Shown: piece after piece, positions 2,283-64,000 of the stretch
How positions within the stretch are numbered: position 1 is the first letter of the stretch
Layout: each line of letters begins with the position of its first letter
NCBI GenBank assembly: GCA_963920765.1
Contig: OY987246.1
Location: forward strand, 24,809,167 to 24,873,166
Source of the DNA: Ulota crispa
Lineage: Eukaryota > Streptophyta > Bryopsida > Orthotrichales > Orthotrichaceae
DNA: 64,000 bases
Direction: 5' to 3'
Notes under the pieces: model-generated
Told to the model about the DNA's origin: nothing
Seen by the model: the letters and a program-made list of their open reading frames with translations, nothing else
Databases searched by the model: none
Translations under genes and position numbers: made by a program

Positions 2283-3274
2283 TTAACTCCCAAAGGACCA
2301 AGTCCTTTTTTCTGTAAAAATCATTGAAAATTACCACGGGGATGAGTAAAAAAGCAAGATTTTTTTTTATGATTCAACCATAGGATCTTGTCTGAGACTA
2401 TGGGAGGTCCCTTGTGGGGAAAAATTTGGTCAGCTCATTTTGAATGAAGAAGAGTGAGATGCTGACATTCAAACTATAAAAAAAAAGTATTTTTCCTTCT
2501 GGCACAAACTTTCACAAGTTTTTGACCACTCTTACAGTGAAAAAAAATGCTCTACACAAAGTTGAGATATAATTCCTCCATGTGAAAGACAAAGTTAGGC
2601 ATGTGTGAGAGAACTTTATGATGAATTGGAGGACTACAACATACTAAATAAAATCTTGCAATGTTGGAAGCTCATGAAATTTGCAAATTCACTAGGCAAA
2701 ATTGGAGGCATTATGTACATTTCAAAAATTTGAATTACACTAATCCAAATGGTAAAATGCAAGGAATCTTAACCCCTCAATGCCCTGGCTTCCAAAAAAA
2801 TATTGAAATGGGGCGCAATTCACACCCTTGGGGCATTGAGGGGTTAACCTACTACAACTTGGAAAAAAACCAAAATAATGAACAAAATGCACAAACTGCT
2901 CAAAAAATCAAAGTTCCAAATTATAGAAGGGGCAAAAGGAATGGGGGGTTGGGATTCCCCAAGTATGGGCCCCTTCCACTCCTCTCCCCTTTGCCTAAGT
3001 GGTCACACCTTCTGCATGTAAGGATTGACCCTCTTTAGAGTCAACACCCTTTTACAAAGGAGAGGCCTTGCCTAAACTACCACTCTTCCCTTAGTTTTGA
3101 TAAACTCTTGCATAACTTCTTTGTTGAATGTCAAAATGAAGAAAAAATTAAATGCCCACATAGGTTTTTGAGTTCTCTACGTGTAGTAGGAGTTTCAAAA
3201 AATAACACAAACTAGTAAAATTGTAGGATCCCATTTTTCCCCTAAGGGGACTATCATGGTCCTTTAGGGGATAT
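2283..3274 (-). mobile_element. TTAA element of the 0.93-kb subfamily (E1), carrying a nested 79-bp element
   Basis: It starts TTAACTCCCAAAGGACCAAG and ends ATGGTCCTTTAGGGG, with the right TTAA decayed to ATAT. The strand given is relative to copies at 34,506 and 47,393, which run the other way. The region around 2,900-3,080 matches, inverted, the part near 63,480-63,600 of E15. A 79-bp element sits at 2,769-2,847. The open frame 2,661-3,038 crosses the nested insert and is not a gene. Confidence 0.7.
2769..2847. mobile_element. Minimal 79-bp TTAA element (E2) nested in E1
   Basis: TTAACCCCTCAATGCCC at the left is mirrored exactly by GGGCATTGAGGGGTTAA at the right. The whole is 79 bp including both TTAAs. 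A second element of exactly 79 bp lies at 58,457-58,535. Confidence 0.8.
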
Positions 3275-5910
3275 CTACTAATCTTTAACAAATACTAAAT
3301 TGAATTACACAAATATACACAATCAAGTTGTAAAATACATTCTAACAATAACACAAAGTGCTCTAGTATGAATAATAATGTCAACGCTACATGAATAAAT
3401 ATTTGCAGTGACATATATGAATTGATTGAATGTGCCCAAATTACCAAAAAAATGTTCAAGTGACAAAAAAAAATTGATCAAATTGACACGTCCAAAACTC
3501 CAAATTGACAAAAAATGTCCAAATTGACATGTTCCTTTGTAATGCAAGATGGCAAGGGTTTGTTTTATTATGACACAATAAGAAAAATTGCAACCTAGTA
3601 GAAAATATAAATTATTTTTGTAGACTTCTACAATAAAGCTCGCAAGAGTGAAGGGAGAGGTGTGAAGAGGAATTGAAGGAAGTGTGGAGTTGGATAGTGA
3701 CAAATTGACCAATGGAGACAAGATGACCAGTCACATAATTTGAATCACAAAGTTTTCATAATTGGCAAAAAAAATTTATTTTTAAAAAGTTATGAAATTT
3801 CCAAGTTCTTAAACTCTTCAGTTATGAAATTTATGGCATTAAAATTAAAACCACAATTTGTTTTGACGTTATAAAAAACAATTAAAGTACAAAAAAAGAT
3901 TTTTTTTACAAACTATTAGAAGAAAGTTCTTTTATTGCGTGGCATTTTTGTGTACTAAGATTAATGCAAAGTAATTTAAATTTGAAGGAAACTTTAAATA
4001 CTTTTCAATGAAAATTGTCCAAATCAACTTGAATATAACCTCAAACTATGGAAGAATTATCTTACGTTAAAATGAAGGTTATGTGTATCATGTTATTTCT
4101 ATATGAATATCGGATGGCAAACAAACTCTTGAAGTGAAGATGACACTTCATGTTTTGCAAGAAATTAGGTCTAAAAAGGAGCAAGGAGTCTCAAGCAATT
4201 AGTAATAACTTTGAATGATATGAAAGAAGAGTAATGTTTTTCATGAATGGAAAATTAAAGGTGATGAAAATATGCATAAGTACATGCAAAGTTTACATAT
4301 ATCCAATTTTGAAAAGTCAAAAACTACGATTCCTCAAAATTGGCAATGTACACATTGTGTCTTTTAGGATTTAGAGTTGCAAGTGACATCTCATAAGGAA
4401 ATCATCATCAAAGTATTCATACTACATTTTTTCAAAACAAAAAAGACAAGCGTTAGAGTTTTGAAAGCTCTTGAGGTGTAGGCAAGCTAATGTAGGATAT
4501 TAGTCCTTTAGAGAATTGAAATCTTAAGGAAGTCCAATCCTCAATTGACACATTTCTTTGAATCATAGATTTTTGTTTAAAGAGCGCAAGTCAATTCTGC
4601 ATCGTAATGTGTTTGCTGAAAGGATTGTAAAACAAAAAAACTCTGAAAATTTGGATATTTAACTTGGTAATTATCCCAAAGATTTAGAGTCTTTTGGAAG
4701 ATTTTTTTGGAAGCAAAGGAGTGGGTGGTAGTCTAAAAGAAAGGTGTTTTTCAATAGCAATATTGTAGTGAGTCACATTTCATGTTGGAATCTCATTTGC
4801 TATCATTATTGCATCAAAGTGTGTTCTTTTGTGCTTCTTGCAACTATATAGGTGTAACTACTTACAAAATTTGGTGAATTTCAATGTGTAAGAGTTGATG
4901 AATGACTTCCAAAGTGAATTCACAATGAATGAATACATAGTTAAGCATCATTTTAAGGACTAGTGGATTGTTCATGTATAGAGAGAACCATTACAAAAGA
5001 CCAATTGATGCAACTATTTGAGTTTGTCTTGTGCTTGTGATTGGTATCTTTTGTTTTTATCATACTAGAATGGAACCATTATGGATAATTGGTTGGTGAA
5101 AATAGTTAATGACAACAATAGTTGTCATTGAAAAATAGTACTATTATAACAAAAATTTCCATCTACATGCTTTTTATACCATTTCATTGAATAGCATGCT
5201 TAATTCCCTTGTGGAATCGTAATTTCAAACATTGACTAATAAGCTTGAACCTATGATAAGGAAGAAGGTTAATACTAAATGTACTTGGCCTTTGCAATAT
5301 TGAGAATTGTAGTCCATGGTATTCAGTTAAACTAGGTCCATTCACAAAGCAAAGTTCGCAAGGAAATGTACACAATTGAGCTATTGAAGCATAATAATAC
5401 AATGGTTTTGTTGATATAAATTGAAATTTCAATTGAAAGGCATATGCAAGTTGTCAACTCACCTTTTAACAAATCTTGAATATTGAGACTTTATTATATA
5501 AAGTTTTTTAAATTTAAATTAAATTGATAAAAAGATATAGAAATACTAAATAAAAAATGTTTTGAATATAGGTTAAGTTATTGTAATTGCTTCAAATGAC
5601 ACACAATAAAATGTATTTTACAAATGAAGAATGATTATTTTCTTGTGTTTACTTTGAATTTTCTCACATCATATTTTTTATAAAATACTAGTCCTGAAAT
5701 GACAATCCCTGAGTTTTTAAAATTTTGTGAAAGCTATTGATGGCCAATTACTTGAGTTAGAAGGTTTTATACAATTTGAACCTTCAGATTCAAATCATAA
5801 AATGGGAAATAAATTGTTATGAAATTTCATTTAGGTTTTATATTAAAAGCCATGAAAAATTATCTACATATCACAGTAACTTGGAGTCAAAAAAGGTAAA
5901 TTATTTAAGT
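3275..5910. other. AT-rich non-coding stretch
   Basis: No credible gene. On the minus strand about 3,470-3,540 holds the GTCAATTTGGACA-type repeat also seen at 18,350-18,440 and 54,515-54,640. The open frame 3,323-3,721 (-) covers this repeat and shows no recognisable domain. The rest is AT-rich with no structure I could identify. Confidence 0.5.
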
Positions 5911-6352
5911 TTAACCCCTAAAGGATGGTTGTCCCTTCAAAGGTCAAATGGGATTTTGGGCATGTACTTATGGCTAAACTACTCCGTGTGATTTTTGAAA
6001 CTTTTATGGAAGATAGGGAATTCAAAGATCTGCATGGGCATCTAACCTTTTCTTCATTTCGACATTTATTGCAAATGTTATGCATGAATTTCTAGAAAAT
6101 GGGGGAGAGCAAGCAGCCCAAAAACTTCTTCAAAATTTTCATTTTTTTAAAACAAAAGCTTGAAATTGGTTCTTCAAAATTTATGTATATGGGGGAGCTT
6201 TGAATCATTCAATTTTGATTGATGAGTGAGTAGTTATGAAGAGTTTTAGTTTGTGGGTAGGTATGGAGTGTCTCAAAACCATACCTACTTGCAAACTAAA
6301 ACTTCTTATAACTTTCATCTCATCAATCAAAATTGAATGATTCAAAGCTTCC

Positions 6353-6406
<54 letters not shown>

Positions 6407-6681
6407 TAAATAAAGCTAAAGAACCAATTTCAAACCTTTATTCTAAAAAAACTCAATTTTAAAGAAGTTTTTGGGCTGTTAGCCCTTGCTTGTTTTCTAG
6501 AAATCCATGCATAACTTCTTCAATAAATGCTAGAATGAAGAAAAGATTAGATGCCCCCACAGATCTTTAAATTACCCATTTTCCATACAAGTTTCAAAAA
6601 TTACACAAAGTAGTTTAGTTGTAAGTACGTGCCCAAAATCCCATTCGACCCCCAAGGGGTCAATGGTCTTTTAGGGTTTAA
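5911..6681. mobile_element. 771-bp foldback TTAA element (E3)
   Basis: Almost the whole element is one inverted repeat. The left arm (5,911 to about 6,277) starts TTAACCCCTAAAGGATGG. The right arm (about 6,286-6,681) is its diverged complement and ends at TTAA 6,678-6,681. The loop is only about 10 bp (near 6,278-6,285). Each arm matches the first 370 bp or so of the 0.93-kb copies at 34,506 and 47,393, so this is an end-duplicated foldback derivative. A (TA)n tract interrupts the right arm. Confidence 0.8.
6356..6401. repeat. (TA)n microsatellite in the right arm of E3
   Basis: About 23 uninterrupted TA units. The matching place in the left arm has only a short TGTATATGG, so the tract grew after the foldback formed. 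Confidence 0.95.
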
Positions 6682-6764
6682 AATTAAAAGAAGATTTGGC
6701 TATGTATTTTTGGAGGAATTAAAATTATTTATTACAGGAATTGTTGTAAACACAATAATTGTTA

Positions 6765-6997: not shown

Positions 6998-9900
6998 CTT
7001 TTGTAGCTACAATTCAAGTGTCATATACCATGATGTAATTGTAGATGGTTATTGATTAAAGTTTGCTCATTAATCATATTTTGAAATGACTAATGCTGCA
7101 ATTGATTAAAGATAACAAAGAGTTTGTTCTTCTCAATTTATAGAAACTAGCATTTGAATTCAACAATTTCTAATGATTGGAAAGTACACTCAAGATCTAA
7201 ACATTCAACCTAAGACGTTGATAGTATTGAAGTAATATGGAATGAGATCTTGTCATTGGAGCTATATATTCTTAATATGCAACATGACATCTATTTAAAT
7301 TTTAAATAATAAAGAACTTGCTGATGTTGCTCAAAACACCTAAAATCAAGGTTTGATTTCAAAGAGTCTTAAAAGTTTCAATGTAATAAGCTCAAATGTA
7401 TGAAAATCCTTTACTGATTTTAAATTGGTCTTACTTTTTGTCGGAATGTATACTATATTGTCCTTTATAGTAAGAATATTGGGCGTCATCTTGTAATAAA
7501 AACTTATGAACAAAAAAACACATGGTGGATTTCATGTGGAAGATTTGTATTTATTTTCCTATGGGTCTCACATTTTTCTATAGATCTTAATATTGTTTAC
7601 TTGTTAAACTTTCATATTACAAACTCATTGTATGAAAAAAATATGTATTTGAAGGTTTGTGAAAAAAATTGTAATTGCTACAAAGAAGTGCCTGTGAGAC
7701 CCTTGTGGTATTGATAAACTTATTGTGGACAAGCATTACATTTTGTGATTTGCAAGGTTTCATTTGTAAAAAACAACCAGTTTGAACAAAATCACATGAA
7801 AAACTAAGAGAGATTGAAAATAAAATATCAGTCAACAACAATGTGCAAAACAAAAATATAGCTTTAATCAAAGTGTTAGATTAATTTATTTTCTTACCTT
7901 TTTACCTTAGGAAGAATCCACTTTTGCATTACTTTTTGTTCTTCAACTTTTATACATTTTAACTTCAATTTTTTTTATTCTATGAAGAAGCTGAATTTCT
8001 TAAATTAATTTCCAATTTTATAACTAGTATCTTTGAGTACTTTTTGCTTTTAAATGTTTCTAGAGGTTTGTCTATTTTTTTTTAAAAAATTTGTTGTGTT
8101 GGCTAAAATAGAAATTTCTACCTTCTTTTGAATTACACTAAATTTTACAATTTGCAAAACCACAAGTTTGATATCAATCTTGTTGTTAAACCAATATAAT
8201 CTCAATGCTTAGAGTGATTGATATCAATTTAAATTTTCTTTCAAAACCATTCATCTACTTGATATCATTCTTACTTTTCATAAGTCATAGTACATGGAAA
8301 TCTAGTTTTTTGAACTTGTAACTAGATACCAAATATCTCATGTGCCACAATAGTGTTGCTAGTTCTTTCAGTATGTTTGAGTATAATTACTATTACCGTC
8401 TCTAACTAATTTTGGACTACATAGTTTAGAAATAATAATTTATATGAGAACATCAAGAGGATTATGGGAAATATTAGGAGACTTATGCAAAACATCCAAA
8501 GACCAATACTTTTTAGCATCAAGAGATCTCTCTATGTTTTGCACAAAAAGTCTAGAATAATATAAATACTCAAAGTTTAGTTAGAACAACATACTATATT
8601 TAAATGAAAACATAATATTTTTTAATAGGATTGCAAACTAAATTACTTCTAATAGCAAAAAGTATCTCTACACTATGAATTTTTAAAAATTGTATGAACC
8701 AAATACTCTACATAAAATCGGTGCATAAATTTTATTAATAAGTGAACTTCTTTGACACTCAAGAGTCTAATTATTTTATCAACAAAGTGTTATGAACCAT
8801 CAATGGCTCACAATATTTGGAAATTGATAAGACACTAGGAGCAGCGTTCCCAAAATTGGCTAAATTTAGCTAGATGTCTACAAAAAAAATTGTGCGCTAC
8901 ATGTATATAGAATTTTTTTTGAAAAATTTGGAAATTTGAGAAAGAAATCATACTTGGAAAATACCAAATTGAAATTTGCTATTTCCTCTTGCTCCAAAAT
9001 TAGCATCCATCCCTTTCGCCAACTTCAAAGATGTAGCTCCTTAGCTATCTCAAGAGTACACCTATTGCTACAGCAGCAACATCTCCACCATAGAAATGGC
9101 AACCTCCAATTTTCTCTTGCACAAAAATTACAAGTTGAGGTTAGTGGTGGGGTTAGTTGGAACAATGGAATTTAATTAGGTTTAGTAGTTTACTAGTTGA
9201 GGTGTTGATCTTTGTTGCAAACCTACAATGAGGCAATGCCACTTGTGTACTTGTTGTTGTGCACTAAATTGTGCAACCCAATGCTCAATTGCTTGTTAAT
9301 GTTTGGATTAGGTTCAATTGTGCGGGATGTGCATCTGTGCGGTAGAATTGTAGCAAAGGGTAAGCATGCTTTGCAATTCTAAAGTTGAACCTTAACTACA
9401 ACAACCTTTACTAGATTTTACTTGAACTTGCTGGGAAAATTGAAGTGCGGAGTTTGAGGCAGGTGCAACTGCAATATTTCATTGTTTATGTCAATTTTAA
9501 CCCATACTATTGTGGCTTGATTTTGTTAATATGCAAATAACTAATAATGCAAAACAGGCAATCTTGCTTATGCAAGGTGGGTTCAATTTCCAAATTGGTG
9601 ACACTATTTTGTGACAATGTTTGTTATACATCATTTAAAATTTTGTACTGCAATTGCCAATATTTTACATATTCCAAGATTGGTTAGCAATTGCAATAAA
9701 CCGATTAACCAAAAGTAGCCATCAATAAACTCCACAATTTTCTTTAGGTTTGCAAGTCAAACTATACTTTAGAAAAAAAAAATCTAAAATTCTACTTTTT
9801 TTTCTCTAAGTTATCTACCATGCTCTAACTATTTTCCTTCCATATTGCAATAATAGCTCCTTTTTTCCCACGGTTATAGCCATTTGGCTAAAAACCCTAA

Positions 9901-11091: not shown

Positions 11092-11836
11092 TTAACCCTT
11101 GAAAGCCCCAGAGGACCAAAAGTGTCCTCACATGATTTCAAAAGCTTGTTTGATGCACTAGATCTAGTTTTTTTATCTTGCTATAGACTACAATTATAAA
11201 GGCATTCAAGTTGTTCATGCCAATGGACTTATGGTGAGGCAAGCTAAATATTATACAAGTGCCTCAAGAGATTTGACTGGGTGAAACACCATATGGGGCG
11301 TGCTAGCAAACATTGTTTTACAAGTTGCAACTAATCAATATCCCTTGCAAGCTTCCTTGTGTGTGCTTTGTGGTAGCAGGAAATCTGCTATCAAGAGTTC
11401 AAACATGTTTTAAACCCTTATTGTAGCAACCCTCACCAATTGTGCCAGTCATTGTTTTTTGTGCAGTAGCATTTTGAAGCCCTCAAACTTGACATAAAAA
11501 GAAGTACAACCTTCAATAACTTGCAAGTGTGTTCATTCACATCTAATCTTACTACTTACAAAAATTTAGATGAATCAAGGGCTTACAGAATTTTGTAAAA
11601 ATCATCAAATTGAGATTTTGTCATCACGTATTGTTTGGTCAAATGTCATAATCTCACATCTCCCACCTGCAATTGTTCCCAAAATTTGGAAGCCACTTTC
11701 TAAATTGTAGTTGCTCTAATATTTTCAATGGTCACTTTTTGTGGATCATTTGATTGACTAAGATACAATACATCCGTGTTGTAGGTCTCCCAAAACCTTG
11801 ATTTTGGCAAAAATGGCCTGAACGTGTAGGAGTTAA
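11092..11836. mobile_element. Possible TTAA element (E4)
   Basis: TTAACCCTTGAAAGCCCCAG at the left, and at the right the complement of TTAACTCCTACACGTTCAGG, both with TTAA at the edge. It is 745 bp, a size between the other subfamilies. The end similarity is weaker than elsewhere. Confidence 0.4.
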
Positions 11837-14636: not shown

Positions 14637-14868
14637 CTAGTACAAGGGCAACCGCAATTACAAGGATAACCATTGGTACAAGGGCAATTGATGGTACAAT
14701 GGCAAGTGATGGTACAAGGGCAAGTGATGATACAAGGGCAAGTGATAGTACAAGGGCAAGTGATGCTACAAGGGCAAGTGATGGTACAAAGGCAAGTGAT
14801 GGTACACGGGCAAGTGACGTCTAGTACAAGGGCAAATGATGGTACAAAGGCAACTGATGGTACAAGGC
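14637..14868. repeat. 18-bp minisatellite, unit GATGGTACAAGGGCAAGT
   Basis: About a dozen imperfect copies of an 18-bp unit. As 18 is divisible by three, two forward frames stay open and would read as repeats of GTRASD or VQGQVM. No upstream exon or conserved domain supports translation. Confidence 0.9.
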
Positions 14869-21549: not shown

Positions 21550-21910
21550 TTAACCCTTAAACTTTGAGAAGGACATTTTTTGTCCTCTAGCTCCAAAAAT
21601 AAAGATTTTGTACTACAAAAAAGCTATTTTCATTTGTTTTTTTTTCAAAAGTGATTATAAACACCATGATCCATCATGGAATGCAAAAAATCATCTCATT
21701 AGATGCACTCATATCTTTAGGAAACACAAATTGTGAGAAGATTCAAAGACATGGTGTTAGATCCCTTCTTGCAATTTTCATGAGGGCACCATGCATTGTT
21801 GACTTTTGCAGCAGCAAAAAATAATATTATAATTGCTGAACACTTGCTGCTATTATAAAGAGTACCGTAGCCAGGTTGGTCACGGTGACCAGCCAAGGTT
21901 TAAGGGTTAA
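21550..21910. mobile_element. TTAA element, 0.37-kb subfamily (E5)
   Basis: TTAACCCTTAAACTTTGAGA at the left and AAGGTTTAAGGGTTAA at the right, with TTAA on both edges, 361 bp. The interior is homologous to E6 (31,985-32,363): shared blocks include CATGATTCATCAT, CAAAAAATCATCT, AATTGTGAGAA and ATGGTGTTAG. Confidence 0.8.
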
Positions 21911-22444
21911 ATGGATGAAAACACCTAAGTATTTCTCAATTTCTGCCCCCACATGCTCCTCACCTACAATTGAACAGAAGTCTACACTCCAAGAAAAGCT
22001 CATAGTTCATCTAAATTAGTCCTAGTACCTAGCAGGGTTTTTTTTTCATTTTTTATGATGTGCCAAAGTGGCAATTTACAATGTTATAGTGGTGCTCCAA
22101 ATTTCAACATTCATCCACATATTGGATAGAAAATACCACATTAGCACATAATACATGTCTATAATTTGGTTTTTATCCACAATTTGGCAATTTCATCCAA
22201 GTTTTTTTTTTTAAAATTTGAAGCTTTTTTGGCGATTTTCATCCAAGTAATCATGTTTTTTTTTTTCTACAAGCTTGGTGCTAGTCAAAAAAATCTGGTG
22301 CTTTTTTGCTCCAAATCGCCAAAAAAAAGAACATTGGTACCTAGCTCTAAGGTAAATTTACATGTATAGGACTAATTGAACTTCAAAATATTATCTTTTC
22401 TATTAGAGAAATAGAAGTTGAAAATGTTAAAAAAAAAACAAATA

Positions 22445-23026
22445 CTCCCTCTGTCCCATTATAAAGCTCCAAAAAACTTCTCCATGAGGGATTAACTGAA
22501 TTTTTAGTCATTATGCTAGTGACAAATGCATTCCAAAATCAATATACCACCTACCAAATATCTACAAAATCTCAAGTTTTTATGTTGCAATTTAGACACC
22601 CAAATTCTATGCAAAAAATACCATATATGTGCATAGTTTGTGAAGCTTGTCGACTCCTCATTATTTTAGTCTTTGTACTAATGACACATGCATTCTAAAA
22701 TCAATATACCATTTACCAAATGTGTGCAAAATCTCTAACTTTGATGTTTCCATTTGGGCACCCAAATTCCAAGCAAAAAATACCATATTTGTACATGTTG
22801 CTAACTCCTCTTTATTGATGATTTAAATATTAGTAGCAACAATGGTACCTCATATGGGCAAGGCCAAGCTTGTTAGGAGAGAAATGCTCTTTAATTGCTT
22901 AACTTGCCCCCATGAGATCATTGGACATGACAAACGCTTTCTCAGCAATTGAAATTAGCAGAAGGGAGCTTTATAGTGGGACAAGAACTCTGCCTAATTT
23001 GGAGCTTTATATTGGGACAGAGGGAG
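22445..23026. mobile_element. Stowaway-like MITE with Tc1/mariner signature (S1)
   Basis: CTCCCTCTGTCCCATTATAA at the left and the complement TTATATTGGGACAGAGGGAG at the right, flanked by TA (22,443-22,444 and 23,027-23,028). CTCCCTC-GTCCC ends with a TA duplication define Stowaway elements of plants. 582 bp, with an internal direct repeat. Confidence 0.85.
22502..22815. repeat. Direct tandem pair inside S1, period about 162 bp
   Basis: The block starting at TTAGTCATTATGCTAGTGAC near 22,504 recurs near 22,666 as TTAGTCTTTGTACTAATGAC and continues in parallel (CAATATACCA, CTACCAAAT/TTACCAAAT, CACCCAAATTC, AAAAAATACCATAT). Confidence 0.8.
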
Positions 23027-23028
23027 TA

Positions 23029-23928
23029 CTTGTTTGGAAACGTTTTGTAAATTCTGTCATTCTTTTCAACTTGAGAGTATTCTATAGGTGCACCTTGAGT
23101 TGTCTTTAAAATAATCCAAAAAATTCACCAGAAGCTTTGTTGCTTTTAAATCATGTTTGCCCCCAGTGCAAAAGTTGAGACATCAAACATGATGGTTTGG
23201 TTTTAGCTCACACTGGTAATACTTGAAAAGGATAGGGATGGTGGGGGCTAAGGATAAGCACCCACCCTGAGGAAAGCCATGGTCGGTGGAAGGTTCAATC
23301 GGAAAGGGGGTGGGGTGGGGGCAAACGGACTCAGGTACATCTACCTAGTAATGTGTCTCACTCACGTCCCCTTCATGCTACAGAAGTATTCGCCACATCC
23401 TGCTCAGCATCAAGTTGTAATCTGGCATCCTTATGAACTGGAAACCTCCGACGATTTCCCTCATCTAGTACGTCTATGCCTCTTCACGTTCTAAGGAAGA
23501 CCATCCCGGGCTACCAGAAGCATACAGACTCATACCGATAGTACGTTGCATCGAAGATGCAGATACAGGTTTGATCCGCTGAAAAGTGACCAGAAAATAC
23601 CGCATTATGCTGGATCAATCAAAATTTTAAGCACCAAATCCATGTGACAGGAGAAAGTTTAAATAAAACTCCCGTTCTAAATCTGCACTAAGATAATCTC
23701 ACACCCTGTAATTTTTCACTAAAATATATAGATTGATCACTAAAACTTAATCTACATCGGATGTGGTATTGCACATATGATCCTCCGATTCCTAAATTTT
23801 ACAGAGCCGCGACCTGAAGCACTTAAAAAAGGAGTAGCATACACAGGGAGACAATGTAGACCCCATGGGTAAGAGTGCAACAAAAATACCCCAGACTCAA
23901 ACGCCCAAGCAAAGTATATTATCCACAT
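23029..23928. other. Flank and probable 3' UTR of the PQBP1-like gene
   Basis: Higher GC than the preceding DNA. The part nearest 23,929 is likely the 3' UTR of the minus-strand gene. No further gene seen. Confidence 0.45.
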
Positions 23929-31984: not shown

Positions 31985-32363
31985 TTAACCCCTAAACGCC
32001 CATGAGGACGATTATCGTCCTGGAAAAAAATTCTGTACAAAAAAAAAAAACAGTCGTTTTTCATCTGTTTTTTTTCCAAAGTGACCGTAAATACATGATT
32101 CATCATAGAAAGCAAAAAATCATCTTATTAAATATGCTTATAGGTAACCCAAATTGTGAGAAAATTCAAAATCATGGTGTTAGGTCCCAAGCTACCCTTA
32201 TTGTAATTTTCATAGGGTTGGCATGCACTATTGACTTTTGAAACTTTTAGAAACAATACTATTGGTGCCCATCAATCAAAACACTGTTGAAGCTACAGTA
32301 TAATTACTGTTGAACCTATAGTGCGGACAGGCCTCGGCCACCTAGCGGTCCTTTAAGGGTTAA
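31985..32363. mobile_element. TTAA element, 0.37-kb subfamily (E6)
   Basis: TTAACCCCTAAACGCCCATG at the left and GGTCCTTTAAGGGTTAA at the right, 379 bp, homologous along its length to E5 (21,550). Its right TTAA (32,360-32,363) is also the left TTAA of E7. It lies 432 bp upstream of the PQBP1-like start codon. Confidence 0.85.
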
Positions 32364-32590
32364 CCCCTGAATGTCACAAAAGCCCTTTGCGGCCATATGT
32401 ATGGCCGTATGTATAGACGTATTTGAGCTACTCTAAGGGCTTTTGAATTTTTTTTATGCACCACCATTGTACAACCCTTCAATATGTATGATTGTAACAC
32501 TTAATTTCTAGTTGATTCAAACTTTTGAATATTGGTTTCAATTGTATTTGGTACCGTAGCTGCAGAGCCCAAGGGCCCTATAGGGGTTAA
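32360..32590. mobile_element. TTAA element, 0.23-kb subfamily (E7)
   Basis: TTAACCCCTGAATGTCAC at the left and GGGCCCTATAGGGGTTAA at the right, 231 bp. It matches E10 (37,230-37,460, also 231 bp) almost throughout, including the short palindromic cluster of GGCCATATGTATGGCC type. It shares its edge TTAAs with neighbours on both sides. Confidence 0.85.
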
Positions 32591-32650
32591 CCCCTAAATG
32601 CCCAAGGCACCCAATTTGAGTGTCCAAAAAACTATCAGAAATTTTGAGAC
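32587..32650 (+). mobile_element. Left end of a further TTAA element (E8), right end not found
   Basis: TTAACCCCTAAATGCCCAAG begins at the TTAA shared with E7 and is a typical left terminus. I could not place its right end, which may be decayed or deleted. Confidence 0.5.
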
Positions 32651-34505: not shown

Positions 34506-35449
34506 TTAACCCCTAAAGGCCCAACTGTCCCGTGGGGGGATAGTTGAGATTTTGGGCATGTACCTATAACTAATCTAGTTTTTGTGATTTTTTAAAACTT
34601 TTATTGAAGGTGGGGAATTCCAAGACCTACGCGGAAATCTAATTTTTTTTGTCATTTTGACATTTGACAAAGAAGATATGCAAGAATTTCTGCTGCCTAA
34701 GGGAGGGAGGGCAATTCGGGCAACCCAAAAACTTCTTAAAATTTGTATTTTCTAAAAATAAAAATCTGAAATTGGTTCTTTAGATTTTTTCATATGTGGG
34801 AAGCTTTGAATCATTCAACTTCAATTGATGAGATGAAAGTTTTGAGATGTTTTAGTTTGTAGGCAGTTATGGATTCTCTACTCTAAAATAAACTTTGATG
34901 TCCTTTATTTTCCACAATTTTTAGTATTTTGGAAAAAAAACTAAACCTAAGGAAGTAGATTGTTTATCACAACATTATGACCGTTGAGATTTTCATTTTT
35001 CATTTCGATGATTAAATTCTTAACAATTTAGTGATTTGACTCATTCTCTACTTCTTTTTACTTATTATTTTCCCCCATGTGTTGTATAGTTCCAATTGAT
35101 TTGAAAATTCTCCCACACATACCTAACTTGGTATGCTACATGGAAAAAATAAACCTCAACTTTGTGTAGAGTAATTTTTTTCATGTAAGTGTGGACAAAG
35201 GCTTCTAAATTTTTTTGGACAGCACAAAAAAAAAAAACCTTTTTTTTCACTTTAGATGCAAATATCTCCCTCCTTTCCATCTAGAATGACATGATTTTTT
35301 CCCACAAGTACCTCTTCTAGTTTAAGGCAAGATCCTATGTTTGGATTTGCAAAACAAACTTTACTTCTTACTTTTCTACTCATTCCCCCCAAAGTGGCAA
35401 TTAGCAGTGACTTTCACTGGAGAAAACTGCTTGGGCTTTTAGGGGTTAA
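34506..35449 (+). mobile_element. TTAA element, complete 0.93-kb subfamily copy (E9)
   Basis: TTAACCCCTAAAGGCCCAAC at the left and GCTTGGGCTTTTAGGGGTTAA at the right, TTAA on both edges, 944 bp. Collinear with E14 (47,393-48,329) over the whole length. No open frame worth a transposase. Good reference copy. Confidence 0.9.
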
Positions 35450-37229: not shown

Positions 37230-37460
37230 TTAACCCTTGAACGTCACAAAAGTCCTTTGCGACCGTATGTACGGCCATATACACAGACGTATTTGAGCTG
37301 CTACGAGGGTTTTCCAAAAAAAATTATGCACCCACCATCATACAACCTTCTAATATGTATGGTTGTAACACTTCATTTTCAACTGATTCAAACTTCTAAA
37401 TATTGATTGCAACTGTATTTGGTATTGTATCTCTTGAGCCCAAGGGCCCTTCCGGGTTAA
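37230..37460. mobile_element. TTAA element, 0.23-kb subfamily (E10)
   Basis: TTAACCCTTGAACGTCAC at the left and GGGCCCTTCCGGGTTAA at the right, 231 bp. The same length as and collinear with E7. Confidence 0.85.
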
Positions 37461-43239: not shown

Positions 43240-44394
43240 TTAACCCCAAAGCTCTGGGGCCTTTATTTTGTCAAAAGACACTCAAAACTGCCATTTCTGT
43301 TGTAAAGAGTAAAAGAGTTTAAAAATTGGTCTTTTTGCATATTTAACTATAGGATCTTGTACTATACTAGTATAAGAATGTGGAAAAAAAAAATTCAAAA
43401 TTTTTGACTGCACAGTTTGCAACATATTTGCGCTTAACCCTTAAACGTCCCAAGGCATAAGAGATACGTTGCCATATACTTGGCATTTGCTACCAATAAG
43501 AAATTTTAACTTGGGATCTCAAATAGTTCATTAGAACTACGTTTATCTATATTCCAACTTCTTTGTTGATCTCAAATGTAGTAAAAGTGTGAATCCATTC
43601 CAAATACAAGAAAAATACCCTATATTGTATTGGTCGCAAAGGGCCTTTCGAACGTCTAAGGGTTTAAGTATAAAACACACAAAAAATTGCACCTTGCATG
43701 ACTAGATTATTTGACTTTGAACCTTTTAAATTAAAATTTTGGCACCACAAAGCTTGAAGTTTTACTTTTTTATGGGAGAAAACTGAGTTGAGAATCTTTG
43801 GAAAAAAACCAAAACCAAAAACACTTAATTTTCATTTTTAATAAAAAGTTTAGGTAGAAGAAGGTATTAGATTGAACAAAAACTTATATTGTTAATAACC
43901 TTGCAATGGAATTGATACTCAATAATTTCATTGGTGAGATTGTTCTAGCAAGCAAACTTCACCCTTTTCAACAATTTTTTTTGAAAAAATGTTAAACTTG
44001 CATTCAAAAATGAAGTTTATAACTTCTTTTTTTCAAGAAGATGCTTGAATTGCCCAAAAAACAAGATTGTCCATAAAATTCTCATAACTAGTCAAAATGG
44101 AATGATTCAAAGCTCTAGACGTAGACAAAACTATAACTTATGAGAGAAAAAACCTAGTTTTTTTTCAAGTTTTTGTAAAAAAACATTGCTACTCCATCTC
44201 CCCAAATTTGTGCTTATCTAGGTATAACTTTTGCTCCCACACATAGATCATAATAAAAATTATGTTCCCCAAAAGCTAATGTGTTCTTCTATCTTCAAAA
44301 AAAAATTCAAAAAATTAGGACAAAATTGAGGCCATAGGTACTTAAACAGAATCCCATTTGTTCCCCGAGGGGACAACAAGGCTTTAGGGGTTAA
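43240..44394 (-). mobile_element. TTAA element, 0.93-kb subfamily (E11), carrying nested E12
   Basis: TTAACCCCAAAGCTCTGGGG at the left and ACAAGGCTTTAGGGGTTAA at the right. It is 1,155 bp, or about 925 bp without the nested 0.23-kb element, and inverted relative to E9 and E14. Confidence 0.8.
43434..43667. mobile_element. TTAA element, 0.23-kb subfamily (E12), nested in E11
   Basis: TTAACCCTTAAACGTCCCAA at the left and GAACGTCTAAGGGTTTAA at the right, 234 bp, with TTAA at both edges. Collinear with E19 (61,515): shared GCATTTGCTACCAAT and TGTTGATCTCAAATGTA. Confidence 0.85.
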
Positions 44395-44534: not shown

Positions 44535-45081
44535 TTAACCCCTAAACACCCAAGGAGGTAAGGGCAAAACATAGATGCATTATAAAGTGATACTTATGTA
44601 ATTTTGATGAAGTTTGCTTCAAAAGAGAAAACAAGAATCAAGATGTTTAGTAATTATCTATATAGTCAAACATTCAAAAAAGGTTATGGATTTTTATTTC
44701 ATAAATTTAGAAGCATTTACCATTTAATATTCACCAAAATTACAAATTTTATTCATAGATTTTAAAATTTGATATGATTGGTTGAAAACATACATTCTAT
44801 TATAAACCTCAAAAATGCAATGTTTTTGAAGGAGATAACCTCATTAGTTTCCCGAAATAGTAAATTTTATAACACTAGCAAATATTTGAAGTGTTTGTCT
44901 TTGAAAATTTCTCCTTGATGGAGTTTAACTTGGATTGACATGAATCAAGTTGGGTTGGAAAATAGACTTGATTTTGTATTTATTTTATTTTATTTTTTTG
45001 AAAAATATATTTTTCATCTCAAGCAGCCTACAAAAAACGGGTAGCGATCAAAAAATGGTCGATTGAGCGCTTAGGGGTTAA
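44535..45081. mobile_element. TTAA element, 0.55-kb form (E13)
   Basis: TTAACCCCTAAACACCCAAG at the left and GAGCGCTTAGGGGTTAA at the right, 547 bp. Its right TTAA overlaps the first bases of the AGGTAGG element that follows, as if it inserted at a TTAA made by that junction. Confidence 0.7.
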
Positions 45082-47392: not shown

Positions 47393-48329
47393 TTAACCCC
47401 TAAAGGACCATTGTCCCTTTGGGGGACAAATGGGATTTTGGACATGTACGTTTAGATAAGCTTCTTTGTGTGATTTTTGAAACATTTGTGGAAGATGGGG
47501 AATTCAAACATCTATGTGGACATCTAATTTTTTCTTCATTCTAACAATTAACAAAGAAGTTGGGCAAATATTGATCAAAATTAGGGGAGGAAGGGCTGTT
47601 TGGGCAGCCCAAAAAATATTTTTATAAATTGCACTTTTTAAAAATAAAATTTTGGAATTGGTTCTTTATATATATTTTATACTTGGGAAGCTTTGAATCA
47701 TTCAATTTCAATCAATGAGATGAAAGTTATGAGGAGTTTTTGTTTGCAAGGAATTATGGATTCTCTATTGTAAAATAAAGTTTGGATTCCTTTATCTTAC
47801 TCAAATTTTCAATTTTTTGGAAAAAGTATTAAACCAAAGGAAGTAGGTTGTTTATTACAACATTATAACCGTTGGGATTTGCAATTTTCATTTCCATAAT
47901 TAGATTCTTAACAATTTAGTGTTTTGACTTATTCTCTACTTTTCATTTACTATTTTTTTCCCATGTGTTGTGCAATTCCAATTGATTTGAAAATTCTCTC
48001 ACATATACCTAACTTGATCTTCTACATGGTAAATTAAAAGCACAACTTTGGGTAGAGCAATTTTTTTCATGTAAGAGTGGTCAAAGACTTTTGAAAGTTA
48101 CAAACAGTAAGGAAAAAAACCTTTTCCCTTCACTTTAGATGTAAATATCTTCCTCCTCTCCATCTAGAATGACCTGATTTTCTCCCACAAGTACCTCTTC
48201 TAGTCTAAGACAAGATCCCATGGTTGGATTTCCAAAAAAAAAAAAAAAATCTACCTTCTTACTTATCCTATAGAAGTGGCAATTTTATGTGATTTTGGCA
48301 AAAAAAGGGCTTGGTCCTCTAGGGGTTAA
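47393..48329 (+). mobile_element. TTAA element, complete 0.93-kb subfamily copy (E14)
   Basis: TTAACCCCTAAAGGACCATT at the left and GGGCTTGGTCCTCTAGGGGTTAA at the right, TTAA on both edges, 937 bp, collinear with E9. No transposase frame. Confidence 0.9.
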
Positions 48330-52734: not shown

Positions 52735-52960
52735 CCCCATGACTATCCCCATAACCATCACCCCCCTCTATAACCATCACCCATGGCCCCTCCATGGCCA
52801 TACCCCCGTGGCCCCTCCATGGCCATACCCCCGTGGCCCCTCATGGCCATCCCCATGGCCCCCTCATGGCCATCCCTCCAAAACCCCCTCATGGCCATCC
52901 CCCCATGACCCCTCATGGCCATCCTCCATGACCCCTTCATGGCCCTTCCCTGATCCCCCA
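52735..52960. repeat. C-rich minisatellite, CCCCTCATGGCCATCC type
   Basis: About a dozen imperfect units of 14-22 bp built on CATGGCCAT with C-runs, degenerating to ATCCCCATC units up to about 53,055. Strong C bias on the plus strand. Open frames (Pro/Trp/His repeats) are by-products. Confidence 0.85.
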
Positions 52961-53059: not shown

Positions 53060-54828
53060 AAGAAATGAAATTTGGTTATAAAAATAGTCTTTCATCTAAT
53101 CAATCTTCATCCACATGACTAACCACTACAGACATAACCGCCATCAAATTTAATTATAGACATAGATGTATCTTCATCCCAACAATACTAAGGAAGCCTT
53201 AAGATTATCACATATGGTCCTTTAACTAATTGGCAATGGGTAAGAATTCTAGTGGCCCTCTAAACGGATTGACATTTGTGTCATGTTTGAGATTATTGTG
53301 GTACAAATGTAGGCCTAGGCGCATTTTGTGTGCCTTGTGAAGTTGGCAAAGGGCCAAGACATTTACCAAAGTTGAGTAAAACATATTTTATTTTTGACAA
53401 ACAAAATTTTTGTCAATTCTTCTCATGTGAATAGGAATAAAAATAAGCAAAGGAGAAGGATTGTCTAGTTGTCAAAAAAAACCCTTACATGTTGATATCC
53501 ACAACAATTTGTCATCAACTCTTTAGTAAAGTTGCATGGATGAATTTTTGATCCAATTTTATGCTCAATTTTAAATTGAAAAACTCTTAATTATACTTTT
53601 CATTGGTATATTATTTGTCCCATTTGGTACAACAAGCTAGGCTTCAAGAAAGTTTGTCCCATAGCGCAAGCCCTTGTCTTTGAATAAGTTACCTACTCAA
53701 ACTTCCTCAAGGTAACCTCTCTCAATGCAAAGCCTCCTCCCTCTCTTCCACAACCAACATGTATGCAGTTTTCAAAATTTTAATTAAATTAGGTTATAAA
53801 ACAATGTTGCCCTTCTACCATTGGTCACATTGAGTTGCTAAGTTTAGCAAATTTCTTAACAAATACAACCTTTTTAAAATACAGTTTTCATCCTTATTTA
53901 AGTTTGTCAATCAGTCTTCTTTTACCAATTATTCTCGCTTCTAGACATCAATGTTGATTTATTGTTTGTCTTTTCTAGACTCTACTAAAATTGACCATAA
54001 ACGGTTGCTCTTAGCCCCCATCCTCAACTCTTGGACATATCTAATGCAAAAATGTTCACCAAGTATTTTGTATTTATCAACCACAAATTTTTCTCCTAGA
54101 GAAACACCAGAAGCGTTTTAAAATCCACAACTAAATGTGATGCAATTGTATAAAAAAATTAAAATGAGTTGATGTTGTAATTTATTTCCCCTCAATCCTA
54201 GCATCTGTGAGGCCAATTCTAAAAGCTTTAATCATTGATTAGAAATTTAAAAAACTGGCAATTCATTCCCTAGGATAAAATTTAATAGGAAGGAATGTTG
54301 AATGTATTCTAAACTAGTTCAAAGCTAATAACAAAATCGATTGATTATGTTGTGTTTATTATTAAAACTGGGGTTTAATAAGAAATTGCTAATTGACTTC
54401 AAAGTTTAATCAACATCACATTGACGTGCCTTAAATTGTCATGAATTTTTATTGAGTCCTGAAAGGTCCAGGGATAGTCAAAATTTCTCAAGATGTATAT
54501 ATCTACAAGGGAAAAGTGTCAATTTGGACATTTATTGTCAATTTGAATATGTCAATCAATTTGGTCTTTTTTTTGTTACTTTGGACATTTTTTTGTCAAT
54601 TTGGACACATTTAGTCAATTTGGATGTGTCATTGCAGATAATTTTTCTTATAGCATTATAAAAATGAATCACAAATGCAATTTGGAAGAATGATTTAGTA
54701 AATGACTTTTCAACAAAAAAAACATAATCTATGATTTATAGATCAGTTCTACACAATTGAATCTACTTTCATAGTTGTTAACAAGGATCGCTATTCTCCA
54801 TATCTATTGAAGTTGTTATTAACCCCTG
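53060..54828. other. AT-rich stretch with two dispersed repeats
   Basis: About 53,640-53,755 is the inverted relative of 42,758-42,880. About 54,508-54,640 begins CTACAAGGGAAAAGTGTCA and is followed by GTCAATTTGGACA repeats as at 18,329, a worn CACTA-like end. No gene. Confidence 0.5.
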
Positions 54829-55380
54829 AAGGGTTATCCCCTTGAGGGACAAATGGATTTTGGGCATGTATAGGTAACTAATTTGTGTGATTCTTTAAAT
54901 CTTTTATCACTACAAGAAAAAGGGCCTTTTTTTACCAGGTTTTATGACCACAGAAGAACAAAAAATGGCCATTTGACTTGACTACAGAGAGGCTACAACT
55001 TTGAGTCAAGCTTGGAATTTGACCTAAATGGTTCCCAAAGAAGCGTTCTCGACAATGTTTGGGACCTCAAATGAAACCTGACTTGAAATTCTCAATTTCT
55101 TAACTACACTTAGTCATATATTTATGACTAATATGACTACATGTAGTTAATTTTACCCATATAAAAGTTAAATTGTGACTACGTTTAGTTATGTATATAA
55201 AAAAATCTCTTGATTATTGTAACTGTGGTTTGAAATTTTATGCACTTTTTATGACACATTTTAGTCAAGTTTATTTAGAACTTTGACTAAAATCTCCTAA
55301 AATACAATTATGACTACTATTAGTCATATTTAGTATATTTTATGACTAATTTTCCTAATAAGTATTGTACAAAGTCATGT

Positions 55381-57950: not shown

Positions 57951-58162
57951 GATTTTTGGTGTGCTTGTTGAGGTATAGCAGCCTAAACCGCAGACCTGCA
58001 TTCGGGAAGGAAAAAAAGCTAAAATTGGACAAAATGAATGATATGTGCACATTCATCCACTTTTTCATTAACATAAATTGTTTTCATCCAAAATCTAGTA
58101 GACATTATGTTTGCTCAAGGAGATTGTTGGGAATTGAAAACATAGCAAAGACACAAAAGAGA

Positions 58163-58566
58163 TTAGGTAGGAGGCTCATAAACCGTCCATCTAAGTGCTG
58201 AAACTAGATTTTGGGGAGGTGAAACTTTTTTGAAATATTTTTTAGTAAATTTTCCTTGAAAAACAAGAGGAATTGGCATCTAACTCAAGTTGTTTCATAA
58301 TTTTTGGGGCTTTGTGGACATAGTTATGAAATTTTGAAGTTGAAGTGCATAGGGCTCTAAAATTGTCCACCTCCTCAAATGTACTCCACTTGCACATTTC
58401 TGAAGCCTATGAAGACAGCATGTACAAAGAGCGTACATTTGAGAAAGTGGACGGTTTTAACCTTTACATGCCCAAATCATCAAACTTTGGTGTTTGGAAC
58501 ACCAAAATTTGGTGCCTTGGGCATTTAGGGATTAATGCTTGGACGGTTTCAGAGCCTTCTACCTTA
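58163..58566. mobile_element. AGGTAG-ended hairpin MITE, copy A3, with nested 79-bp element
   Basis: TTAGGTAGGAGGCTCATAAA at the left, inverted partner TTCAGAGCCTTCTACCTTA at the right. It contains the conserved CACCTCCTCAAATGTAC and TTTTGGGGAGGTG motifs. 404 bp, or 329 bp without the nested TTAA element, close to A2 (333 bp). Confidence 0.8.
58457..58535. mobile_element. Minimal 79-bp TTAA element (E16), nested in A3
   Basis: TTAACCTTTACATGCCCAAA at the left and CCTTGGGCATTTAGGGATTAA at the right, 79 bp including both TTAAs, the same length as E2. It interrupts the right half of the A3 inner palindrome. Confidence 0.75.
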
Positions 58567-58841
58567 TAACCAAAGTATGCAAGCCAAGTAGGTTTTCCCG
58601 CTACACTCACGGACAAGTAAAGATAGAAAACAAAAGTCTTTCTCTACTATTGGTCCATGGGATTCCTTTACTAAAGTAAATTCCAGTGAATTCTAGTTAA
58701 CTATGTGGAGAGCGTATATAAGCCAAAGACGTTTCTAGGTAAGATTTAGGCAAAAATTTGCCAAGAAATTAAACACTAACATAGGATATTGGAGAAGAGG
58801 ACTTAAAGATAGCATTGGTGGTTGCGGAGAAGGACAAGACA

Positions 58842-59049: not shown

Positions 59050-59960
59050 CATTATGGCCTACCAAGTAGAGAGGCCGTAGAATTGAGTGGCCAAATTTTC
59101 TTGAGAGGTCAAAGAAATGGGTTGAAATTAGGTAAGAAAATCATGAAACTACTAAAATCACAATGATCTCTAGAATATCACATGTGCACCTCTATAATAT
59201 CACATCTCTAGTCTTTGTGATATCAATTAACAATACTACTACAATCACAAAGATCTTCATAATACCACATACACACAATTTGCAATACCACATCATACAA
59301 CTAAAATCATAGCAATTTGTGTAGTATCACATCCTAATTTTTGTAATATCATGTTTTCAATCTTTGTGATATTATATTGCTAAAATTAGCATACTATCAT
59401 ACTACTAAAATCACAAGGCTCTCCATAATATCACATTTTTTACAAAATGTGATATTATAGAGTTCACCAATAGCCACTGCACTTTTGTAATGTTGCATTG
59501 TGTTAAATTGTAATATTATATAGGTACAATGATATTATGAAGGTTAAGCAAAGTGATGTCATAGAAGTTTTAGTTTGAATCTTTTTTTTTGCCTTCAATG
59601 TATTCATCATTGCATGTATTTCATACCTTAAAATTTGTATTGGACATTTCAATTTACAATTATTACTCTATATTCTATCTAAATATATGAAAATCTTATT
59701 CATGTATCACTACAACAAAATGACGTTTTATGGGTTTGAGTTATGGTTGTTGTGAGTCATTTATAATTACAAATGACTCACAACAGTCATAATTTAGAGT
59801 CATAAAATGCCCATTTTGTTGTCATATATGGTATAGTGATTGCATAGCGTAGCAAGCTCCAACAACTAGTCATACTACTAAAATCACAAAAATCTCTCTA
59901 ATATCACATCTACACCTTTGTAATATCATATCTCTAGTCTCTTTTGATATTATCACAAAG
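59050..59960. repeat. Cluster of TAATATCACA motifs inside the CACTA element
   Basis: The phrases ACTACTAAAATCACAA and TAATATCACAT, with complements TGTGATAT(C/T), recur roughly every 40-60 bp. A related copy lies near 57,010-57,050. The cluster is split by a small CACTA-ended hairpin at 59,708-59,838. Confidence 0.7.
59708..59838. mobile_element. 131-bp palindromic CACTA-ended hairpin
   Basis: CACTACAACAAAATGACG at the left. The right side carries CATTTTGTTG and ends TAGTG. The centre is an inverted pair of GTTGTGAGTCATTTATAATT. No clear target duplication. It may be a CACTA-derived miniature element. Confidence 0.6.
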
Positions 59961-60070
59961 ATACAATTTGAAAACCTACCAAAATTTTTACTTTGCATTC
60001 TATCTAACATATGAAAATCCTACTACAATTCTAATGCTAAATGCATAGTGTAGCAAGCACCAACCGCTAC

Positions 60071-61518
60071 TTAATCCCCAAAGGACTAAGCTATATTTTC
60101 ATCAAAACTGCTCCAAAATTACCACTTCTAAAACCAGTACCAAATTTTAGGAAAGAACACTTTTTCATACACAAAACTGTAAGACTGTGTGGAACAAAAG
60201 TTTCAAAATATGTAAAAAAAATTCAAAAAATTTCTCCATGTAGATTGTAAGATACTTATGAGTTTGAATTAACAAAAAGCCATTTTTTATCCTTGCAAAA
60301 ACTTGGGCAGTTATACTTCACAAGGTCACATTTGTATGAATTGTTTTCAAAATGCTTATAACTCTTTGGATTCATTCTTCAAAGCAAGTTGGATGTATAC
60401 TTGAAAATTTTTAAATCATTTGGAATTGTACAACATATGGAAAATAATAGTAAGTAAAAAGAAGTAGAGAATGTTCAAAACACTAAATTGTTGAATTAAT
60501 TTGTGGAAATGGATAATGCCAATCCCAACAATTTTGCAATTGTAACAAATAAATTACGTTATTTTTTATTTTATTTTTTCATAAATATTGAAAATTGAGT
60601 AAAATAAATGACTTCAGTTTTTTTTTCAATAGAAAATCTATTACTACTCGCAAACAAAAAGTGCTCATAATTTTTTATCTCATCAATCAAAATGGAATGA
60701 TTCAAAGCTTTCCACATACACATAATCCCCTAAAGGACCATTGTCCCTTTGGGGGACAAATGGGATTTCAAGCATGTACCTCTAGCTTAACTACTTTACG
60801 TGATTTTTTAAAACTTCATCAAAGGTGAGGATTTCAAAGATCTACTTGGGAATGTAATTTTTTCTTCATTCCAACATTTATAGAAGAAGTTAAAAATGAA
60901 AATTGAGAAACCACACCTACTTGCAAATTAAAACTTCTCATAACTTTCATCTCATCTATCAAAATTGAATGATTCAAAGCTCCCCACATCTATGTAAGTC
61001 TAAAGAACTTATATCAGATTTTTATTTGAAAAAATGAAATTTTTAAAGATTTTTTTGGTTGCCTGGGGAGCATCATTTTCTAGATTTTCATTTTCAACTT
61101 CTTCAATAGATGTCGGAATGATGAAAAAGTTACATTCCCACATAGATCTTTGAAACCCTCACCTTTGATAAAAGTTTCAAAAAATCACGCAAAGTAGCTT
61201 AGCCATAGGTACATGCCTAAAATCCCATTTGTCCCCAAAAGGGACAATGGTCCTTTAGGGGTTAAACTAGTTTTAAGTTTTTATTTTGAAAAACTGAAAT
61301 TTTTCTAATCTATCCAAACTTCCTGGCCAAGAAAAGAAGTAACATATTTGGCCATAACTTTTTGCTCATAATTCCAAATGCATTGAAATTTAGTGCATAT
61401 GAAAGATATTCCTCATACACACCTTCTAAAACCAACCTAAAGCATGAAAATCTCCAATTTCATGCGCTTGCCTAATATTGCTATGTTGCCAAAAATATAG
61501 CTTGGTCCTTTAGGGATT
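60071..61518 (-). mobile_element. TTAA element, 0.93-kb subfamily (E18), carrying nested E17
   Basis: The left end is TTAATCCCCAAAGGACTAAG; the right end ATAGCTTGGTCCTTTAGGG has its TTAA decayed. Its interior at 60,400-60,560 matches E9 (34,980-35,110) inverted. About 907 bp without the nested foldback. Confidence 0.7.
60723..61265. mobile_element. Foldback TTAA element, about 543 bp (E17), nested in E18
   Basis: The left arm starts ATCCCCTAAAGGACCATTGT and the right arm ends ACAATGGTCCTTTAGGGGTTAA. Arms of about 200-250 bp are complementary, sharing CCCCACATAGATC-type and ACATTTAT-type blocks. Like E3, each arm derives from the first part of the 0.93-kb element, but the two foldbacks have different arm lengths. 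Confidence 0.8.
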
Positions 61519-61758
61519 TGCCTTTAAAGGACATAGCTACTATAATACATAGTATGGACACTGCTCTATAATTAGCATTTGCTACCAATGTATTTTTAAT
61601 ATTTGGGATCTTAACTACCTCACTAGAACACCATTGATCTATATTCTAACTTTTGTGTTGATCTCAAATGTAATAAAGGTGTGGATGCACTCCAAATACA
61701 AGAGGAATACCTTGTATTTTACTAGTCGCAAAGGGCTACTTTGTCCTTTAAGGGTTAA
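61515..61758. mobile_element. TTAA element, 0.23-kb subfamily (E19)
   Basis: The left end is worn (ATTTGCCTTTAAAGGACAT); the right end is TTTGTCCTTTAAGGGTTAA. Collinear with E12. It abuts E18 directly. Confidence 0.7.
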
Positions 61759-63600: not shown

Positions 63601-64000
63601 TTAACTCCTAAAGGCCCAAGCCCTTTATTTTGTGAAAATCACTCAAAACTGCCACTTTTGGGGGAGTGAGGAGAAATGTAATTTTTTTTTTTTTGGAAAT
63701 CCAACTAGAAGATCTTGCCCTAGATTATGGGAGGTACTTGCGGGAAAAAAATCAGCTCATTCTAGTTGTAGAGGAGTGAGATAATGACATTTGAAGTGAA
63801 AACAAAAGTTTTTTTCCTTGCTGTCCAAAAATTTTAGAAGCCTTTGACGGCTCCTATATCAAAAAAATTGCTCTATGCAAAGTTGAGGTTTATTTTTCCC
63901 ATGTAGAAGACCAATTTAGGTAAATGAGGGAGAATTTTCAAATGAAATGGAGGAGTGGATCATACTTTGTAAAATCTTGCAATGCCGTAAGGTCATGAAA
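63601..64000 (-). mobile_element. TTAA element, 0.93-kb subfamily (E20), cut by the window edge
   Basis: TTAACTCCTAAAGGCCCAAG at the left, then the same order of blocks as E1 and inverted E9/E14 (GCCACTTTTGGGGG, ATCTTGCCCTAG, GGGAGGTACTTG, CAAAGTTGAGGT). The rest lies outside the window. Confidence 0.75.

Follow-up and report, generated by a model that had tools for sequence, protein, structure and literature searches.

Short TTAA-flanked elements in a moss genome, very probably non-autonomous members of the piggyBac superfamily

The window analysed here is a stretch of 64,000 bases (C5:24809167-24873166) in a genome of 274,817,297 bases on 157 contigs. It is crowded with short repeats that have TTAA on either side and inverted ends beginning with CCC, and these elements, very probably piggyBac-superfamily transposons that do not encode their own transposase, are the subject of this report. 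Pairing of the ends by hand gives 17 elements, 14 of them top-level and three nested. The 14 top-level elements occupy 9,218 of the 64,000 bases (14.4%), and the ends 54819, 32587 and 61758 were left without a partner. The groups are labelled P (about 0.94 kb), B (231 bp), C (79-bp hairpins) and D (361-745 bp). The features are as follows, with the strand where one was assigned:

2283-3274, minus strand: group P, 992 bp; 3'-type end at left, 5'-type end at right (TTAA changed to ATAT); hosts 2769-2847
2769-2847: 79-bp element with inverted ends CCCCTCAATGCCC, TTAA at either side; lies within the element at 2283; three paralogous joined-flank alignments
5911-6681: group P, 771 bp; two 5'-type ends, inverted arms of 244 nt
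11092-11836: group D, 745 bp; empty site relative to a copy at locus L008 with a nested TTAA element
21550-21910: group D, 361 bp; TTAA on both sides
31985-32363: group D, 379 bp; right TTAA shared with the next element (32360)
32360-32590: group B, 231 bp; copied in full at 37230-37460 and L005:1501-1732; adjoins the left end 32587
34506-35449, plus strand: group P, 944 bp; 5'-type end at left, 3'-type end at right; 40 empty-site matches scored, 20 read
37230-37460: group B, 231 bp; full-length copy of 32360-32590
43240-44394, minus strand: diverged group P, 1155 bp; 3'-type end at left, 5'-type end at right; hosts 43434-43666
43434-43666: 233-bp TTAA element within 43240-44394; related to 61562-61756 and L008:1532-1720
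44535-45081: group D, 547 bp
47393-48329, plus strand: group P, 937 bp; both ends match the complete piggyBac elements X25, X38 and X26 (below)
54819-54904, plus strand: unpaired 5'-type group P end
58457-58535: 79-bp hairpin element sitting inside another inverted-repeat element
60071-61520: group P, 1450 bp including a nested copy; two 3'-type ends, right TTAA decayed
60723-61265: nested group P, 543 bp; two 5'-type ends, left TTAA changed to TAAT
63601-64000 and 554 bases further beyond the window, minus strand: group P, 954 bp; about 510-544 bp of the 3' end and about 190 bp of the 5' end of complete piggyBac elements

A preliminary description of this DNA had listed nineteen element positions. 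Seventeen coincide with an end that carries the motif. The other two are off by 5-10 bases: for 54829 the actual left end is 54819, and the element starting at 60071 has its right end at 61520, 5 bases beyond the listed 61515. Only 8 left and 6 right ends in the window match the common end proposed there, TTAA-CCCYTAAA, without a mismatch, and TTAA-CCCYTRAANGNCC with substitutions describes the ends better. That nearly every edge is TTAA, with variable bases beyond it, agrees with the present counts. When the pattern does not include TTAA, 26 of the 35 ends in the DNA read are flanked by TTAA (14 of 17 for CCCCTAAAGG); conservation outside the motif is limited to these four bases, and positions -5 to -10 of the 35 ends carry no strong consensus. 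Decayed terminal copies read ATAT at 3274, TAAA at 43666, TAAT at 60723 and CAAA at 61520. The terminal motif CC[C/T]T is present in the inverted repeats of these elements. Three TTAA elements or ends adjoin at 31985-32632 with their TTAAs shared, and the shared copies at 31985-32363-32590 suggest that a duplicated site was used again.

Such ends are far more frequent than in control sequences. At a score of at least 13 out of 15, the motif TTAACCCYTAAANGNCC marks 26 ends in the window, compared with 0, 0, 1, 0 and 0 in five local shuffles; at a looser cut-off of 12 there are 37, compared with 1-5. Pairing of TTAA-anchored terminal inverted repeats yields 17 pairs in the window and the 3.8 kb to its right; some of these pair one end in more than one way, and at least one pair (55100-55150) looks spurious. 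The runner-up among the 256 tetranucleotides, AAAA, yields 7, and twenty local shuffles yield 0-3. A stricter 18-base repeat rule returned two pairs only and missed most elements, and a shorter rule was used instead. Genome-wide, CCCCTAAAGGNCC occurs 13,028 times (6,485 + 6,543), and its reversed control 9 times (3 + 6). TTAA stands in front of 10,998 of these matches (5,515 + 5,483; 84%), with a reversed control of 0 + 0, although the first CCCCTAAAGGNCC pattern did not include TTAA. Several of the listed CCCCTAAAGGNCC matches are plus and minus ends paired about 0.92-0.96 kb apart. TTAACCCYTAAA occurs 39,919 times (19,961 + 19,958; reversed control 397 + 395, or 792), and the group B end pattern 90 times.

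The preliminary description saw no transposase. A Pfam comparison of ten of the window's 26 open reading frames of at least 110 amino acids returned a WW domain and nothing else. A genome search with PF13843 (DDE_Tnp_1_7), the piggyBac transposase domain that had been suggested as a check, gave at least 120 match rows with a best E-value of 1.3e-73, and none of 14 control genomes matched. The rows come from 116 scored of 528 candidates, a few genes giving two rows, so further loci are likely. The catalytic triad was checked in two copies, L011 and L012, neither of which is X25, X38 or X26, with residue numbers counted from the alignment. Aligned to PDB 6x67 (which, with 6x68, we take to be the piggyBac of Trichoplusia ni), the L011 frame keeps D268, D346 and D447, and the first L012 frame aligns at D268 and D346, the first two of the triad. 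Both frames also align to piggyBat (PDB 9c0f), and both have tails that look Cys/His-rich by eye, where no separate Pfam match was found. Median identities of 30 transposase loci to three query frames are 33-38%, which suggests a long stay in the genome rather than one recent arrival.

An acidic, conserved coding block is located one to several kilobases upstream of the transposase core in long elements (L081:970-1935 on the minus strand, L051:221-673 and L053:74-679), with 37-49% amino-acid identity between copies. Three of its frames gave no Pfam match, and the one frame compared with PDB matched at chance level (E 0.15). Because a block that looks similar by eye occurs at L011:128-637, about 0.9 kb upstream of the transposase match, a separate second gene was set aside; the block is probably an N-terminal exon behind long introns.

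Reading outwards from four transposase loci gave three complete elements with both ends of the group P type, and a further element, E09, belongs to a different lineage:

X25, C5:24506226-24515054: 8,829 bp, complete, TTAA-bounded, both P-type ends
X38, C8:11097229-11105483: 8,255 bp, complete, TTAA-bounded, both P-type ends
X26, C9:12440860-12449389: 8,530 bp, complete, TTAA-bounded, both P-type ends
E09, C3:13130262-13135288: 5,027 bp, piggyBac transposase, ends TTAA-CCCCTCATCGCC and TTAA-CCCTTCATTGCC (CCCYT)

The loci around which X25, X26 and X38 were built (L025, L026 and L038) contain PF13843 matches, so that the longer elements with the same ends, also proposed as a check, do encode DDE_Tnp_1_7. 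At the left the three have TTAACCCCTAAAGGACC(A/G)TTGTC, at the right TTAACCCCTAAARGA(CCAAG or TTGAG); their mutual similarity begins and stops at TTAA, within one base. The right boundary of E09 is common to a 90% identical relative, L018.

The short group P elements align with both termini of these long ones. From its first base, 63601-64554 matches X25 over 544 bp (77%), X38 over 510 bp (78%) and X26 over 516 bp (73%); from its last base, it matches all three from their first base over 187-191 bp (78-87%). Base 1 of the short element is paired with base 8829 of X25, and base 954 with base 1. The elements at 34506-35449 and 47393-48329 show the same pattern over 353-383 bp and 184-218 bp.

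The long elements also contain self-complementary stretches (given in script coordinates). One in X26 is 876 bp long with 94.7% identity (E26 485-1359). Others of about 400 bp and 75-82%, related to one another, occur in X25 (E25 1074-1486 and 2534-2949), in X38 (E38 1469-1846 and 2929-3339) and beside the transposase of the fourth locus, X34 (E34 779-1185).

Empty sites provide a second line of evidence. In a genome search with the joined flanks of eight elements, 40 of 3,819 candidates were scored, and matches came for 34506-35449 only, the joined flank of which lies within a high-copy repeat. Every one of the 40 spans the joint (89-93% identity). Each of the 20 that were read has precisely one TTAA and no gap there. 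Insertion of this element at TTAA was therefore precise, and the single remaining TTAA anticipated in the preliminary description is what these sites contain. A local comparison of 33 of 34 candidate pairs, some of them alternative pairings of the same ends, with 250,744 bases gave five alignments that span the junction with no gap close to it, three for 2769-2847 and one each for 34506-35449 and 63601-64554. The sites in these diverged paralogues read TTAG, TTAA, TACA, TAAA and CTTG. A TTAA element is nested in the group D copy at L008, and the window copy, 11092-11836, represents the corresponding empty site; the two align gap-free over 107 bases, and the site reads TTGA.

Taken together, these data make it very probable that the window elements are non-autonomous transposons of the piggyBac superfamily in a moss, resembling miniature inverted-repeat transposable elements (MITEs). 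The assignment was originally made from TTAA and CCC ends, and it is now backed by DDE_Tnp_1_7 inside elements with the same ends and by the single-TTAA empty sites. Its non-autonomous character holds for the group of about 0.94 kb, and for the other groups it is probable. Group P fits the definition of a MITE, being short, high in copy number and equipped with both termini of coding elements (937-954 bp copies compared with X25, X38 and X26), and its short members appear to be non-coding. At the 5' end these share about 185-220 bp with the coding elements of 8.3-8.8 kb, at the 3' end 350-545 bp, and the coding middle is gone, as would be expected of deletion derivatives. The transposase of the long copies probably bound the CCCYTAAAGG ends in trans, excised the short copies and joined them into TTAA with duplication of the target, as the T. 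ni piggyBac does. The smaller groups (79-745 bp) are probably derivatives of other piggyBac lineages in the same genome. For groups B, C and D this is suggested by common features, namely TTAA, terminal CCCYT and the behaviour of the site, and the assignment is made through the ends.

Several observations weigh against this interpretation. Nine of the 35 ends lack a perfect TTAA, which we read as decay. Only one of the six diverged local empty sites is TTAA, the others being TTAG, TACA, TAAA, CTTG and TTGA. By themselves, the empty sites fit a TTAA duplication or equally a TA duplication inside TTAA by an element starting with A. The fourth locus, X34, has a matching right end, but no left (5') end was found there. 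The middle 220-370 bp of the short elements do not align to X25, X38 or X26, so the short elements are not simple deletions of these three copies; they look like derivatives of relatives of them, without the coding middle. In the DNA read, groups B, C and D are tied to no transposase, and no genome-wide search for their coding elements was made. Their matches in the transposase records are 74 bp of L021, lacking a TTAA end, and short neighbours beside E09 and X26. Only 10 of the 120 transposase rows are stop-free, several of these being fragments, and 110 contain stops. The best group P copies (34506, 47393 and 66014) are about 78% alike end to end, and other pairs are alike piecewise at 57-83%; there is thus no sign of recent movement.

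Among the alternatives, the best surviving is that the ends belong to another TTAA-targeting superfamily and that piggyBac genes merely coexist with them in the genome. Kolobok and Sola3 elements use TTAA as well, so the duplication is not unique to piggyBac, and groups B, C and D have no transposase attached in the DNA read. For group P, this explanation is refuted by the presence of a DDE_Tnp_1_7 gene between exactly these ends in three complete elements. E09, in which the same domain lies between CCCYT ends of another lineage, also speaks against it, and overall we consider a Kolobok or Sola3 origin very improbable. Still less credible is an origin from elements that duplicate TA (Tc1/mariner, Stowaway-like) or TWA (PIF/Harbinger) with a strong preference for TTAA. 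The geometry of the empty sites would suit a TA duplication inside TTAA by an element starting with ACCC, and the window does contain a Stowaway-like element (22436-23035), but the transposase inside the long elements is that of piggyBac and the outer Ts of the site are kept nearly as strongly as the inner As. The choice between TTAA and TA duplication is thus settled only indirectly, through the type of transposase. CCCTAAA, the unit of plant telomeres, forms part of the motif, but a telomeric or chance origin has almost no probability, as TTAACCCTAAA is absent from the window, shuffles and reversed patterns give little or nothing, and the ends bound alignable repeats in pairs.

The amplification is probably old, judging by the copy identity of about 78%, the stops in 110 of 120 rows and the transposase identities of 33-38%, and most copies look old. 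It may be that mosses house an old, highly diversified piggyBac radiation, probably transmitted vertically, that accounts for a large part of their DNA transposon complement and has been overlooked; we see this broader proposal as evenly balanced. On this view the radiation would have escaped notice because the pipelines used for plants assign inverted-repeat elements to five other superfamilies. A MITE survey covering 207 plant genomes, including four bryophytes, works with five superfamilies and one special group, and neither piggyBac nor TTAA occurs in its main text (PMC12550479), which points to a blind spot in plant transposon surveys. In one moss assembly, TIR (terminal inverted repeat) elements are given as 29% of the genome, with CACTA first (PMC11704416). 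Some moss piggyBac elements may be filed under other classes, for example within the large CACTA share of that other moss. In a draft genome paper on a moss (PMC6723128), none of the terms sought was present.

The host is a moss, since the DNA-binding exon of its LEAFY gene is nearly identical to PDB 4bhk, FLORICAULA/LEAFY homolog 1, presumably the Physcomitrium protein (104 of 106 aligned residues, 245 bits; four other LEAFY chains score at most 174 bits). On the plastid contig, C157, tRNA-Arg(CCG) lies 3' of rbcL and before an accD-like frame; a tRNA-Arg(CCG) between rbcL and accD fits a seed-free plant. A second, partial rbcL match is found off this contig, inside an open frame of 964 amino acids (C97:118173-118940). 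Besides the LEAFY gene, five loci match the SAM domain of LEAFY (PF01698): L042 (C1:33973746-33973937), L043 (C3:21851572), C10:3335821, C5:13921926 and C2:25193267. The frame upstream of the match at L042 resembles, by eye, a BED-type zinc finger, and given this frame a SAM_LFY-like domain may occur in transposon-derived genes.

Other repeats are present in the window. The inverted repeat at 22436-23035, for which we assume the name Stowaway-like, reads CTCCCTCTGTCCCATTATAAAG, has 38-nt arms that are 95% identical, and encloses a 162-bp tandem repeat. A separate inverted-repeat family with ends near TAAGGTAG...AAACCGTC occurs at 797-1104 and 58162-58567, and its second copy hosts the 79-bp TTAA element at 58457. 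Tandem arrays are located at 14674-14867 and 52763-52944, with an 18-bp unit (10.6 copies) and CCATGG-rich 25/72-bp units.

PiggyBac is widely used as an insertion tool in animals. The genome described here is that of a land plant with at least 120 transposase match rows and 10,998 perfect copies of one end motif next to TTAA. A moss host permits direct tests of transposition in a plant, and fixed TTAA insertions with clean empty sites are possible markers in mosses.

The T. ni piggyBac and piggyBat resemble the moss elements in their DDE_Tnp_1_7 domain with the same aspartates, their TTAA target and their CCC-ended inverted repeats. The T. ni element differs in being about 2.5 kb long (2472 bp in PMC10813416), whereas the matching moss group is 8.3-8.8 kb with nested repeats and resides in a plant where TTAA-flanked copies of a single end motif run into the thousands. 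In land plants, piggyBac was held in the preliminary description to be not generally reported. This needs qualification. A 2025 beetle paper calls it occasional in plants, with red algae as an example (PMC12732532). As excerpted, a repeat table for the C-fern has 1,230 PiggyBac copies with 122,417 bp (PMC6890710), one for the grass Stipa has a single 75-bp copy (PMC8319324), and a review names PiggyBac among the MITE superfamilies of angiosperms (PMC10004981). The fern and Stipa entries likewise concern land plants and the PiggyBac class, but in the tables concerned they are class labels, without transposase, ends or empty sites. No report of piggyBac in a moss was found in the literature searched with plant-related terms, a body of text that mostly leaves out subscription papers. 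The ciliate Blepharisma also has a genome crowded with MITEs, and the available text of its paper mentions piggyBac 22 times, but the setting there is a germline subject to developmental removal of DNA (PMC9942856). Another parallel is provided by the CMITEs of Acropora corals, which, according to the sections available, are MITEs with TTAA flanks and CC[C/T]T ends that their authors link to piggyBac-like elements, one family seemingly being derived from such an element (PMC2872659). From the same sections, CMITEs are about 100 bp long, number on the order of a hundred full copies and belong to an animal, whereas the moss group P elements are about 0.94 kb long and have both ends in common with coding elements. 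A piggyBac element with MITE derivatives is therefore of a kind known from corals, and what is new is the moss host and the large scale.

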